Assembly: GCF_001886955.1 (NCBI RefSeq)
Contig: NZ_CP016804.1
Coordinates: forward strand, 1,488,001 to 1,552,000
Length of the DNA stretch: 64,000 bases
From: Halodesulfurarchaeum formicicum
Lineage (GTDB): Archaea; Halobacteriota; Halobacteria; Halobacteriales; Halobacteriaceae
Reading direction: 5' to 3'
Position 1 is the stretch's first letter, and each line of letters begins with the position of its first letter. The notes under the pieces were generated by a model. It ran no database searches, had not been told where the DNA came from, and was given only the letters and a program-made list of their open reading frames with translations. The position numbers and the translations under genes are program-made. Shown piece by piece: positions 17,091-22,373 of the stretch.

Positions 17091-17209
17091 GACGGGGATT
17101 TTTATGCCGCTACAATCGTCTATCGATTCCAGATTTTGGCACATCAATTTTCATATACTATTGCCCCGATGGGGGAGCGTTTACAAACCGGGGCGGGGCA
17201 AAGGGGCCC

Positions 17210-19258
17210 ATGAGCGAGGAGTTGCCGGCATCCGTTCCGGGGCCGGTTCCACCCGACGAGCGGACGGCCTGGTACGCCCCAGGGGTCCGCTCGCAGTACG
17301 CCGTCTCGAACGGGATCGTCGCGACCGTCAGCGAACAGGGCGAGGGATATCGGTATCACACCCGGACACCGTCATTGAGCGAACGGGAAAAAGCGGCCCA
17401 GGAACGGATCGAACGCCGATTCGAGGACGCCACGATCAGCCGGCCACGAACCCGGGCGGGAGCCGTCGAGCGGGTAAGCGACGGCCTGCCCAGTCGCCTC
17501 CGGGACCGGCTGCCGGAACTCGACGGTCGCCGACCGGCCAGCCGACGACGGCTCCAGTACCACCTGCTCGCGTCGTTGCGGGCCCTCGGAGATTTGACGC
17601 CGCTGGCGCTTGACGACCGGGTCCGAATCGCTGATACGAACGCGGATCGGCTCGCAGTTCACACCCGGGATTTCGCGCCCGCGATCACCGACCTGCCGGA
17701 CGACACGCCCTTCCTCGACCGGTTTCTCGGTGAGCGCCTGCGTCGGGAGACAGTCCCCTTCGCCGGGTTCGAGATCCCGGTCACGGTGGTCCGCGGACAC
17801 CTCCTGGGCGCGGACACCTTCGAGGTGAGCTACGTCGTCGAGGAGCCGGACCTGCTTCCCGGGGATCGAGCGCTGATCGAGACCGTCCTCGACCGCCTCC
17901 TCGAATCCCCGCCCGCCGGGATCCTGGACGACGAGGTCCACAGCGTGGCCGAACGCGCTCGGACGTTGCTCAACCGTCGCATCGGGACCCGGCCACTTGC
18001 CCGCCTGGCCGATCGACTTCCGCTCCCCCGTCGATCCCGTTCCGGATCGCTGACCCCCGCGTCCCGCAGCGAGCGCCTCGACGCCTTGACCTACTACGTG
18101 CTTCGAGACCTGCTCGGGGACGGGAAGCTGACGATTCCACTTCGTGATCCCGCAGTCCGGTCGGTGGAAGTCAACCGGGTCGGCGACCGCATCACGGTCG
18201 TCTCTCATCGGGGAACCACGGTCGGGGACACCCGGATGCCGACTACCCTCTCGATCGAAGATACGGCGGAGTTCGTCGCGCTGACCCGCTCGCTCGCAGC
18301 GGAGGGTGGCGTCGAGCTGAGCGTCCATCGACCGGCCACCACCGTGACACTCGAACGGGACACGAAGTCGGGTCGTCGGGAGATGCACTGCTCGGTGTCC
18401 CTGCCCGACAGAGCGGAGCGCGGGCACGTCTCGATCACGGCCGAGCGCGAGACGCCCCCGACCCCAATGGCGCTCGTCGAACGGAACCAACTTGATCCCG
18501 AGCTCGTCGCGGGAATCTGGACCGCGGCCGCGAATCGGGGCACGGTCGTGTTCGTGGGCCCGGTGGATGCCGAACCGACCGCCGCACTGGGCGCGCACAC
18601 GCCGTTTATCCCCGCCGCCGACCGCCCGGTCGAGATTGGGGCCGGGGGGTCGCAGGTCGACTTGCCACACGAAACGGCCATCACAGTCCCTCGGCAAAAC
18701 GGGGTGCGGGACCGGCGCATCGAGCGGGACGCGTTGCACCCCGATGTCGCCGTTTTGAGCGGGCTGAACACCCCCGAGGCCCTGGAACAACTCGGGAGTG
18801 TCGTCGCGAGCGGCCGGCCGGCCTTCGCGGCGGCGAGAGCTGCCGATCGGTCCCTGTTTGCCCACCTGGTGTCCCAGGCCGGGATCGTCCAGGAGTTCAC
18901 GGCCGGTGTGGATCTCGTAATCGAGCTGCCAGCGCCGGACGCGGACGAAACCGCGACGGGCTGGGTCCCAGTATCGCCCGATGACAAGGGTGCCAAACGA
19001 AACCCGGGCCTGGAGTTCGAGCGGCTCTTCGACACCGAGGGAGACGGGTCACTCTCCAGCCGGTTCGCTCGCACACTGGCCGCAAGTCCCGAGACCGGGG
19101 TGGGTCCACCGGCGGTCGCCTTCGAGCGACGCCGCCAGTACGTCGAGTACCTCCTGACCGAGGGCTCGACCGACCGGGAGCGCCTCATGGGCTTTCTCGC
19201 CGATCTGCGGACGGACGAGGCTGCGACCATCGAACGGATCCGAAATCGGGAGCAATGA
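17210..19258 (+). CDS. Type II/IV secretion (PilB/TadA-like) ATPase, nucleotide-binding motifs lost
   Basis: A 682-residue protein laid out like archaeal pilus/secretion ATPases: a long N-terminal domain (about 1-285), the linker AYY-like segment at DALTYYVLRDLLGDGK (291-306), and a C-terminal RecA-like domain. However, the P-loop position (449-459) reads VGPVDAEPTAA instead of GxxxxGKT, and the Walker B/GEVR region (512-520) reads DVAVLSGLN. ATP hydrolysis is therefore unlikely; a structural or regulatory role is inferred. The frame is intact over its full length. It overlaps the TadC/PilC-like gene by 4 nt. Confidence 0.82.
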   Translation: MSEELPASVPGPVPPDERTAWYAPGVRSQYAVSNGIVATVSEQGEGYRYHTRTPSLSEREKAAQERIERRFEDATISRPRTRAGAVERVSDGLPSRLRDRLPELDGRRPASRRRLQYHLLASLRALGDLTPLALDDRVRIADTNADRLAVHTRDFAPAITDLPDDTPFLDRFLGERLRRETVPFAGFEIPVTVVRGHLLGADTFEVSYVVEEPDLLPGDRALIETVLDRLLESPPAGILDDEVHSVAERARTLLNRRIGTRPLARLADRLPLPRRSRSGSLTPASRSERLDALTYYVLRDLLGDGKLTIPLRDPAVRSVEVNRVGDRITVVSHRGTTVGDTRMPTTLSIEDTAEFVALTRSLAAEGGVELSVHRPATTVTLERDTKSGRREMHCSVSLPDRAERGHVSITAERETPPTPMALVERNQLDPELVAGIWTAAANRGTVVFVGPVDAEPTAALGAHTPFIPAADRPVEIGAGGSQVDLPHETAITVPRQNGVRDRRIERDALHPDVAVLSGLNTPEALEQLGSVVASGRPAFAAARAADRSLFAHLVSQAGIVQEFTAGVDLVIELPAPDADETATGWVPVSPDDKGAKRNPGLEFERLFDTEGDGSLSSRFARTLAASPETGVGPPAVAFERRRQYVEYLLTEGSTDRERLMGFLADLRTDEAATIERIRNREQ

Positions 19259-21078
19259 GCCGGCGGGTTCGTAACCGACTCGGCCAGGTCGTCTTTCGGC
19301 TCTTCGGCCGACACGTCGATTCGGCTCGCCACGAACGGGACCGCACCCGCTTTGCGGCCCTCGGGCGGTCCCACTCCTTCGAGACCTATCTGCTCCGTCA
19401 GTACGCACTCTCCTGGCTCGTCGCCCTCGCTGCTGGAGCCACAGGAGCCATCGCCGCTCGTGGGTTCCTCCGATCGGCCCCGTTCACACTCCCCGCCATC
19501 GACGGATTCGGGGCCGTCCTGGCGGGCAGCCTGACTATCGGGCTGATCGCTGGGGGCCTCGCCAAGTACCTCTTCCGGCGGACAGCGAGTCTCGCTCTGG
19601 AGTATCTCGTCCGACGGCGCCGAACACAGATCGAGCACACGCTCCCGGGGGCGGTCAGGTATCTGCACGTGACGGCGGCTGGAACGGTCGATCCCGCCCG
19701 GCTCTTCGAGCGAATCGCCGACAACGAGCGCGTACACGGCGCGATGGCCCACAGCGCGAGACGGATCCGCCGTCGGCAGCAATTCACGGGGAGCGTGGAA
19801 TCAGCGATCAGGCGGGAGGCCCGTGACACACCCGCGACAGAGTCACTCGCGCCCTTTCTCCTGACGTTCATCGAACGGCGTCGCGAGGGAAACGCGGCAC
19901 TCAGAGAGTTTCTGGCCGACGAGAGTCGGCTGCTCGCCGTCGAGGACGAACAACGACACAGACGAGAGGCGTCGTACCTCCGGACGGTGGTGGGGCTGTT
20001 CGTGCTGCTACTGGTCGGGCCGCTGTTCCTTCTTCTCGGGTTGGCCGGCGTGTCGATCGTCTTCCCGGATGCACTTCCAACGGCACTCGAACTCGGCCGC
20101 CCACAGTTCGACGGGCTCCTGGCCGGGGTCGGCAGCGCCGGGATCGTCCTGCTCGGGGCCGTGGCAGCGCTGTTTGCCTTCCTGCTCCGACCGAGCGGTC
20201 ATCGCTGGGCTGCTCCGGCCCCAGCACAGAGCCCGATCGCGGTCCTGCAATCGAGCCCTCGCAACCCGACAAACGCCCTGCTCGTCCTGCTCCCGGTCGC
20301 CCTCGGCGCACTCGGCTGGGGACTCTTGTCTGGAGGGGCAGTATCCACCTTGCTCCTCGGGGCGTACGTGGCCGTCGCGGTCCCAACTGGGCTCGTCGAC
20401 GTGCGACGGGCCCGCCGACGTGCCCGTATCGATCGGGCGCTCCCCGGGTTCGTCCACAGCCTCTCCGAGCGACTCGAGAGCGGTCGCCCCCTCCGTCAGG
20501 CCGTCGCGGAGATCGCAACCGAGGAGTCCTACGGCCCGCTCCAGGAGCCGATCAGAAAGCTCGCCGTCGATCTGAAACTCGTCCACGGACCGACCGGCGG
20601 CCGGACGGAGGCCCTCGAACGGTTCGTCGGCCGAATCGGGACGCCCTTCGCGGGCCGGACGGTTGGGCTGGCCATCGGGGCCATCGAAGCCGGGGCCGAC
20701 GCCCGGACGGCCGTGGCCCACCTCCAGACCGAGACGGGGCGACTGGTTCACGCCGATCGGGCCCGCCGCTCCCGGTTTCCCGTGGTCATCCTGGTGGGCT
20801 GGACGGTTGCCCTGCTGATCGTGGCCATCGTCGTCGCGGTGAACCTGATGGTGCTCGATACGGCCAGTCCCACCGGCCCGGTCGCCGGCGTGACGGTGAC
20901 GGCTATGGAAGCGCCCGGCCAGAAGCGGCCGCTCTTCTATGTCCTCACGCAGGCGACGATGCTCGCCAGTGGCTGGTTCGCCGGGCTCACCGGACGTGGA
21001 GTTTACGAGGCCCTGTTGCACTCGGGCGTGCTCGTCGGGATCACCTGGGTGGGCTTCCGACTCGCTGGCCTCGTCTGA
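19255..21078 (+). CDS. TadC/PilC-like secretion system membrane protein
   Basis: A 607-residue polytopic protein with two type II secretion F-like domains, each a soluble helical bundle followed by membrane helices (helices near 50-72, 86-108, 243-268, 288-311, 340-378, 513-537, then two close to the C-terminus). It is the platform protein partner of the preceding ATPase-like protein, with which it overlaps by ATGA. No pilin or prepilin peptidase gene is adjacent, so the assembled structure is unknown. Confidence 0.85.
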   Translation: MSRRVRNRLGQVVFRLFGRHVDSARHERDRTRFAALGRSHSFETYLLRQYALSWLVALAAGATGAIAARGFLRSAPFTLPAIDGFGAVLAGSLTIGLIAGGLAKYLFRRTASLALEYLVRRRRTQIEHTLPGAVRYLHVTAAGTVDPARLFERIADNERVHGAMAHSARRIRRRQQFTGSVESAIRREARDTPATESLAPFLLTFIERRREGNAALREFLADESRLLAVEDEQRHRREASYLRTVVGLFVLLLVGPLFLLLGLAGVSIVFPDALPTALELGRPQFDGLLAGVGSAGIVLLGAVAALFAFLLRPSGHRWAAPAPAQSPIAVLQSSPRNPTNALLVLLPVALGALGWGLLSGGAVSTLLLGAYVAVAVPTGLVDVRRARRRARIDRALPGFVHSLSERLESGRPLRQAVAEIATEESYGPLQEPIRKLAVDLKLVHGPTGGRTEALERFVGRIGTPFAGRTVGLAIGAIEAGADARTAVAHLQTETGRLVHADRARRSRFPVVILVGWTVALLIVAIVVAVNLMVLDTASPTGPVAGVTVTAMEAPGQKRPLFYVLTQATMLASGWFAGLTGRGVYEALLHSGVLVGITWVGFRLAGLV

Positions 21079-21603
21079 TCACTCCTCGGCGACGTCGAAA
21101 CCCCACTCCTCGGCCCGCTTGCGGGCCTCCATCGCCGCCCGCTTCTGGATCGCCTCGATCTTCTCGTCGTCGGCGAGGAAGGCTTCGACGGCGTCGAGTT
21201 CGGCGTCCGGCTCCGCCGGTTCAGGGTCGTCGGCCGCCTCGCGGGTTCGATCGGCGAGGTCGGCGTCCCCGACGACCCGCTTGGCGGGGGCCGCCGGGGG
21301 AATCTCACCGTGCTGAACCGTCTCGACGTCGGCGGTCTCGACGAGTCGAACGCGGTAGGGACCGGTTTCGGCGATGTCGGCGAGGGCCTCGGAGCCACTC
21401 CGACCCGTCCCCGTGTGGCGCACGCTCACCGGGACACCCTCGTCGAACCATAGGACACACCGACCGGCCCCGTCCCCGAAGAGGCCGGCCTGGGGCTGGA
21501 TCTCACCGTACCCGACGAGTTCGGTTTCGAGTGCTTCCCAGAGCGGTTCGCCGACGTCCATCACGACGCGGTCGAAGCGCGCCTGTCCGTCCGGCCGGCT
21601 CAT
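21079..21603 (-). CDS. Conserved haloarchaeal protein of unknown function
   Basis: A 174-residue acidic soluble protein not assigned to a known family. The N-terminal ~90 residues look like a small alpha/beta domain (VVMDVGEPLWEALETEL, CVLWFDEGVPVSVRH), and the C-terminal third is a charged helix (AIQKRAAMEARKRAEEW). Its start overlaps the MinD-like gene stop by 4 nt, so the two are co-translated; it may be a partner of that ATPase. It is convergent with the TadC-like gene, with no bases between stops. Confidence 0.6.
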   Translation of the reverse strand: MSRPDGQARFDRVVMDVGEPLWEALETELVGYGEIQPQAGLFGDGAGRCVLWFDEGVPVSVRHTGTGRSGSEALADIAETGPYRVRLVETADVETVQHGEIPPAAPAKRVVGDADLADRTREAADDPEPAEPDAELDAVEAFLADDEKIEAIQKRAAMEARKRAEEWGFDVAEE

Positions 21604-22373
21604 GGGGCGTCCGGGATCACGGCGTTCCGGAACCGATCGGCCACGCGGTCCGGATCGGCGGCCTCGATGTCGAGTGCCGACGCGATCGAGGCGAAGGCCG
21701 ACCCGGCCGGGCTGTCGGGAGCGTGGGCCAGAAGTGGGGTGCCCGCCTTCCGTGCCTCCCGGGCCGCCTCGTCCATGGGGACCGCGCCCAGAACTGGTCC
21801 CGAGACGTACTCGCCCGCACGATCCGTGATGTGAGAGACCTCCTCGGGATCGTGGACCTTGTTGAAGACCAGGCCGGCCACGTCGGTCCCGTAGGCGGTC
21901 GCGTACTCCTGCACTTTCAGGCCGTCCGTGATCGCCGGGATCGTCGGCTGGACGACCAGGACGATCCGGTCGGCGATGACAATCGGCAGGACCGCATCCC
22001 GGCTTCCCAGTGTGGCCGGGGAATCGAGCAGCAGCACGTCGGTCCGTTCGGCCAGGGTCGCGATCACGTCCTGGAGTCGGGACGGATCCGCGTCCCGGAA
22101 GGCCTCCAGGCTCGTCCCACAGGGCACGATATCCATGCCAAAGCGGTGATAGACCGCCTCGGAGACTGGGTGGTCGCCCTCGCCGACGAGGAGGTCCTGC
22201 AGAGTCACCGGGACGTCAGCCAGGCCGGCGTGAAAGAGGAGATTCGCCATACCCGTGTCCGTGTCGACGACGGTCACGTCGTACTCCTCGGCCAGGCCCA
22301 TCCCGAGCGCGAGCGTCGCCGTCGTCTTTCCAGTGCCGCCCTTCCCAGAGGCCACCGCGAGGACCTCTACCAT
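21600..22373 (-). CDS. MinD/ParA family P-loop ATPase
   Basis: A 257-residue deviant Walker A ATPase: SGKGGTGKTT at residues 9-18 with the signature lysine, switch segment DTDTGMANLLFH and Walker B LLLDSPA. Relatives position proteins on the membrane or the nucleoid by ATP-dependent dimerisation. Haloarchaea have several MinD paralogues, including ones that place archaella and chemosensory arrays; which type this is cannot be told. No obvious amphipathic C-terminal membrane helix is seen. Followed by an overlapping gene of unknown function. Confidence 0.88.
   Translation of the reverse strand: MVEVLAVASGKGGTGKTTATLALGMGLAEEYDVTVVDTDTGMANLLFHAGLADVPVTLQDLLVGEGDHPVSEAVYHRFGMDIVPCGTSLEAFRDADPSRLQDVIATLAERTDVLLLDSPATLGSRDAVLPIVIADRIVLVVQPTIPAITDGLKVQEYATAYGTDVAGLVFNKVHDPEEVSHITDRAGEYVSGPVLGAVPMDEAAREARKAGTPLLAHAPDSPAGSAFASIASALDIEAADPDRVADRFRNAVIPDAP

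Follow-up and report, generated by a model that had tools for sequence, protein, structure and literature searches.

An ATPase gene coupled to a platform gene

The window, that is the whole 64,000-nucleotide stretch of the Halodesulfurarchaeum formicicum genome (a single contig of 2.086 Mb) analysed here, carries a gene orthologous to PilB4-type secretion ATPases and, directly after it, a gene for a membrane platform. The features discussed below are the following:

17176..17209, + strand: upstream element, with a conserved GAGCGTTTACAAACC block and, some 30 nt before the ATPase start codon, a TATA-like TTTACAAA
17210..19258, + strand: putative pseudo-ATPase gene, orthologue of PilB4-type secretion ATPases, 682 aa, frame open
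17210..18064, + strand: haloarchaeal N-terminal extension of the ATPase, about residues 1–285, its best conserved part
18557..18583, + strand: degenerate P-loop GPVDAEPTA, residues 450–458, Walker Lys replaced by Pro
18638..18658, + strand: degenerate Asp box GAGGSQV in place of DEGSREV, about residues 477–483, Asp replaced by Gly
18737..18769, + strand: degenerate Walker-B region HPDVAVLSGLN, residues 510–520, with Gly518 at the position of the catalytic Glu
18830..18847, + strand: degenerate His box AARAAD in place of TTHAED, about residues 541–546, His replaced by Arg543
19255..21078, + strand: platform gene (TadC/PilC/ArlJ-like), 607 aa, T2SSF match in Pfam with E=1.3e-15
21078..21079, no strand: junction at the place of the pilin cassette of related genera, where the platform gene and the next, convergent gene abut without a gap

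The start codon of the platform gene lies inside an ATGA overlap with the end of the ATPase gene. A preliminary description of this DNA had reported the unbroken frame of 682 codons, the ATGA overlap with an intact TadC-like platform and the motif strings VGPVDAEPTAA and DVAVLSGLN, and all of these read the same here: the frame spans 17210–19258 (+), the platform has T2SSF domains and the Walker-B region reads PDVAVLSGLN. Upstream of the pair, the GAGCGTTTACAAACC block is kept in G000, G012 and G180, the three genomes from the window's genus, while the DNA further upstream is not, and this block is probably a promoter element.

The ATPase gave no match to Pfam at E≤1, T2SSE (PF00437) included; an intact orthologue scores 77 bits with the same T2SSE model. 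The NCBIfam FlaI model matches it with E=4.8e-11, far below the cut-off of the model, and among PDB sequences archaeal GspE (2OAP) matches it with E=5e-5. The AlphaFold2 model (mean pLDDT 78) has as its best Foldseek matches 2OAP (E=8e-24) and FlaI (E=9e-22), and the N-domain and the RecA fold are thus predicted to survive. The protein shares its predicted fold with the archaeal secretion ATPases GspE (2OAP) and ArlI/FlaI (4II7, 4IHQ), its best PDB matches; however, GspE and ArlI bind ATP or ADP via an intact P-loop, whereas in the window protein Pro stands in place of the Lys and the catalytic Glu is missing.

The Walker A consensus GxxxxGK[ST] is absent from the protein, and in the window's genus the catalytic Glu, the Asp of the Asp box and the His of the His box have become Gly, Gly and Arg. 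The preliminary description was right about Walker A and Walker B and incomplete beyond them, as the Asp box, the His box and the IRK arginine of the N-domain are lost as well. The protein presumably neither binds nor hydrolyses ATP, and these losses bear out its earlier naming as a pseudo-ATPase. Some positions are retained in all five proteins that share the degenerate motifs (see below), namely PHET, LxPD and the first P-loop glycine. Together with the predicted RecA fold they might speak for an unusual site that still binds nucleotide or even still drives a motor. We regard this as very improbable: the P-loop Lys has been replaced by Pro, and the residues that work with it (Thr, Glu, His, Asp and Arg) all went as well, in a different way in each of the two genera concerned, as released sites behave.

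Distribution of the motifs among haloarchaeal orthologues

Of the 392 haloarchaeal genomes searched, most have relatives of the pseudo-ATPase; in many cases these are full-length orthologues, in others distant paralogues only. Full-length matches have about 40% identity across the order, and the position of the protein inside its own family in the tree marks it as an orthologue of the extended haloarchaeal type. A search of plasmids with the pseudo-ATPase found no relatives, and one with an intact orthologue found only distant CpaF-like matches.

The census of motifs was made on an alignment of 61 sequences: five from the window's genus (g1: G000, G012, G180) and its sister genus (g5: G095, G151), which we take to be Halanaeroarchaeum, and 56 from outside these two genera. 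The P-loop Lys is present in 56/56 sequences outside and is Pro in 5/5 inside. At the Walker-B position Glu is found in 53 and Asp in 3 of the 56 outside sequences, and it is lost in all five inside; the same five genomes also lack the Asp of the Asp box, the His of the His box and the IRK arginine. Orthologues of other genera carry GPTGxGKTT, IDEGSREV, LNPDVEVIAEIN and GTTHAED. The preliminary description had raised the question of whether all orthologues share the loss, and had named intact P-loops among them as evidence against its reading. The loss is not shared, and the intact P-loops of all 56 orthologues compared outside the two genera show that it is lineage-specific, so that an ancestral or family-wide pseudo-ATPase is rejected. 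Sequencing or assembly error is rejected too, because the congeners G012 (96% identical) and G180 (61% identical) carry the same degenerate motif.

Intact orthologues surround the two genera in the tree, and the loss is therefore derived from an active ancestor. With the RecA columns removed, the ATPase tree unites the two genera within their family at support 100, and the platform tree likewise joins them in one clade with support 100. It should be noted that both trees are of a quick kind and that the two genera have long branches or stems, which is a caveat on their joint placement; the clade comprises five genomes, one of which (G180) is incomplete, with a contig that ends in the platform. 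Since the change from Lys to Pro is shared and both trees give one clade, a single loss in the common ancestor of the two genera seems the likeliest course, and two independent losses are not favoured.

Absence of the adjacent pilins

Elsewhere, the platform gene is followed by five small genes whose products have pilin-like N-termini (DUF7289, DUF7266, DUF7263, DUF7262 and DUF7261 in Pfam). This cassette occurs both in further genera of the family and outside the family; it is present in loci L095–L100, L104–L107 and L109–L111 and absent in the window and in L055, L093 and L094. No pilin-like ORF was found after the platform in G012, G095 or G151, none of the five genomes of the clade has DUF7263, and DUF7261 is represented there only by a distant paralogue common to the whole family.

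The cassette of genus g2 (L095) is followed by relatives of a 174-aa protein and a MinD-like protein that are also encoded in the window, where their genes (21079–22373, – strand) converge on the platform and the 174-aa gene meets it tail to tail. The order of these two genes resembles that of HVO_0596/MinD2 in H. volcanii, in which MinD2 affects shape and motility (PMC11588486).

The closest described counterpart is the HVO_1160 locus of Haloferax volcanii, which has an ATPase with N- and C-terminal extensions and its own pilin set (Makarova et al. 2016, PMC4858521); the link to it is made here through this published description of extensions and pilins. Like the haloarchaeal PilB4–PilC4 locus (clade 2; HVO_1160), the window locus has an ATPase with the haloarchaea-specific extensions at both ends and ATGA-type coupling to a TadC/PilC platform, and overlap, T2SSF domains and platform tree all identify the paired platform gene. 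It is orthologous to loci that bear their own pilin set, as the PilB4–PilC4 type does. Unlike these, its ATPase is without nucleotide-binding and catalytic motifs and its own pilin cassette is missing.

Among the genomes of the tree, motif loss was found in 0/43 pilin-bearing loci versus 11/17 pilin-less ones. Only about 3–4 independent events stand behind these counts, with motifs eroded three times and the cassette lost four times (sign test, median p 0.5), and because of this the association of motif loss with missing pilins is a trend of consistent direction that is suggestive only. In genus g11 (L108, L118–L122, L124–L127) ATPase and platform are intact with no detectable adjacent pilin cassette; pilin loss is therefore not sufficient for motif loss. 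Genus g11 may have its pilin genes at another site, or its pilins may have diverged beyond the reach of the profiles applied.

Other stages of erosion were observed as well. Three pilin-less genomes of genus g33 (G043, G051 and G067; L113, L114 and L115) keep the P-loop and have Arg, Asn or Asp for the His of the His box, and the motifs of their pilin-bearing congeners (L153–L155) are intact. Genus g64 (L101, L102, L103) and L156 have an orphan PilB4-like ATPase, with no platform found at the locus. Within g64, G332, G312 and G249 keep the P-loop, have Asp for the Walker-B Glu and have lost the His box; the ATPase of G186 is intact, likewise with no platform at the locus. Genes for an ABC-transporter ATPase and permease stand directly after the orphan ATPase in L102 and further downstream in L101 and L103. 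Split, truncated or stop-containing PilB4-type ATPases were found in G108, G118, G161, G336, G088, G131, G020, G229, G235 and G208, and the PilB4-type locus is often lost in haloarchaea.

Constraint on the two genes

Purifying selection acts on both genes after the loss of the active site. For the pair G000/G012 we obtained dN/dS of 0.111 (0.069–0.169) for the ATPase, 0.161 (0.053–0.346) for its RecA core and 0.102 for the platform; three active ATPases of the same two genomes gave 0.074–0.175. The pair G151/G095 of the sister genus has 0.223 for the ATPase and 0.261 for the platform, and G000/G180 has 0.230 with dS near saturation. Overall, dN/dS ranges over 0.11–0.23 for the ATPase, 0.16–0.23 for the RecA core and 0.10–0.26 for the platform. 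The ATPase frame is open in all five genomes of the two genera, one pair of which has dS above 1.

Constraint is unevenly distributed along the protein. In the N-terminal extension, 39/57 of the positions near-invariant in intact orthologues are kept by all five pseudo proteins; the figure is 26/63 for the N1 domain and 19/77 for the RecA core, and the extension is retained better than the core (p=6e-7). Four platforms retain 78/156 such positions. The ATPase gene is thus under constraint, which is strongest away from the former active site.

It might be argued that, with the pilins lost, the locus is on its way out and the open frame is a leftover of slow decay, the more so as other lineages frequently have this locus truncated, disrupted or missing and the RecA core has lost most of its near-invariant positions. 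We consider this very unlikely, though less so than a hidden nucleotide site. Decay is not supported, because dN/dS is low and does not differ from that of active paralogues for ATPase and platform alike, the frames are open in five genomes of two genera, even at dS above 1, and the upstream element is conserved. The preliminary description had the protein as maintained, and it stands: dN/dS is 0.11 for G000/G012 and 0.11–0.23 over the pairs of both genera, the promoter-like element is kept in the genus, and the relaxed selection or frameshifts in close relatives that it had set against its reading were not seen.

Discussion

It appears that the change of a PilB4-type pilus motor into a pseudo-ATPase dates from the common ancestor of Halodesulfurarchaeum and its sister genus, and that the five-gene pilin cassette was lost in the same lineage as the motor motifs. 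We think it probable, though by no means assured, that the former motor has been retained together with its platform as a non-motor module of structural or regulatory character. The pseudo-ATPase would still dock on its own platform through the conserved N-terminal part, and the two would now form a membrane module that serves as a static scaffold or regulator and does not build a pilus. A task shared with its own platform is what the operon overlap, the joint acceleration of the two proteins and the retained N-terminal domain suggest in the first place. What speaks against such retention is that conservation is lowest in the RecA core, a domain that may be undergoing slow loss. The old motor role appears excluded by the sequence, while the new role is what we infer.

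Another partner might also be considered. At least three further ATPase–platform pairs with intact motifs are encoded in the genome, as are PilA-type pilins elsewhere, so the pseudo-ATPase could scaffold or inhibit an active secretion ATPase, as the preliminary description had proposed, could mix with it, or could lend its platform to the active ATPases for the assembly of those pilins. Paralogous ATPase/TadC modules have been argued to be able to share pilins (Makarova et al. 2016, PMC4858521), and PilB1–C1 and PilB3–C3 partly cross-complement (PMC6491452). However, the closest tie of the pseudo-ATPase is to its own operon partner, both accelerate jointly in the clade, and no link to any particular other PilB was seen; action on another PilB is thus unlikely, although it deserves more credit than decay. 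About 8 kb before the window (G000:C1:1477761-1479870; L004, L012) lies a divergent secretion ATPase gene with P-loop GPRGAGKTT and a weak T2SSE match, which adjoins a platform gene.

Returning to the retained pair of pseudo-ATPase and platform, we can tentatively be more specific: the motor orthologue may have become a fixed structural protein that does not bind ATP and that has, with the platform, a pilus-free membrane function such as anchoring or positioning. Like maintained pseudoenzymes in general, it has fold and frame under purifying selection and a lost active site. It differs in being no additional copy alongside an active enzyme: the dead protein is the orthologue itself and stands in the operon where the working motor stood. 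The open-licence papers searched contained no account of such a pilus motor.

To our knowledge, type IV pilus motors have been thought useful only as ATPases. If the explanation given here is true, the motor–platform core of type IV pili has been re-used, and a dead motor orthologue under selection with its platform suggests that this core can have a role apart from ATP-driven assembly. The erosion stages in three pilin-less lineages offer a natural series for studying the dismantling or re-use of such a machine, and they come with a pointer to the haloarchaeal N-terminal domain as the portion that remains important.
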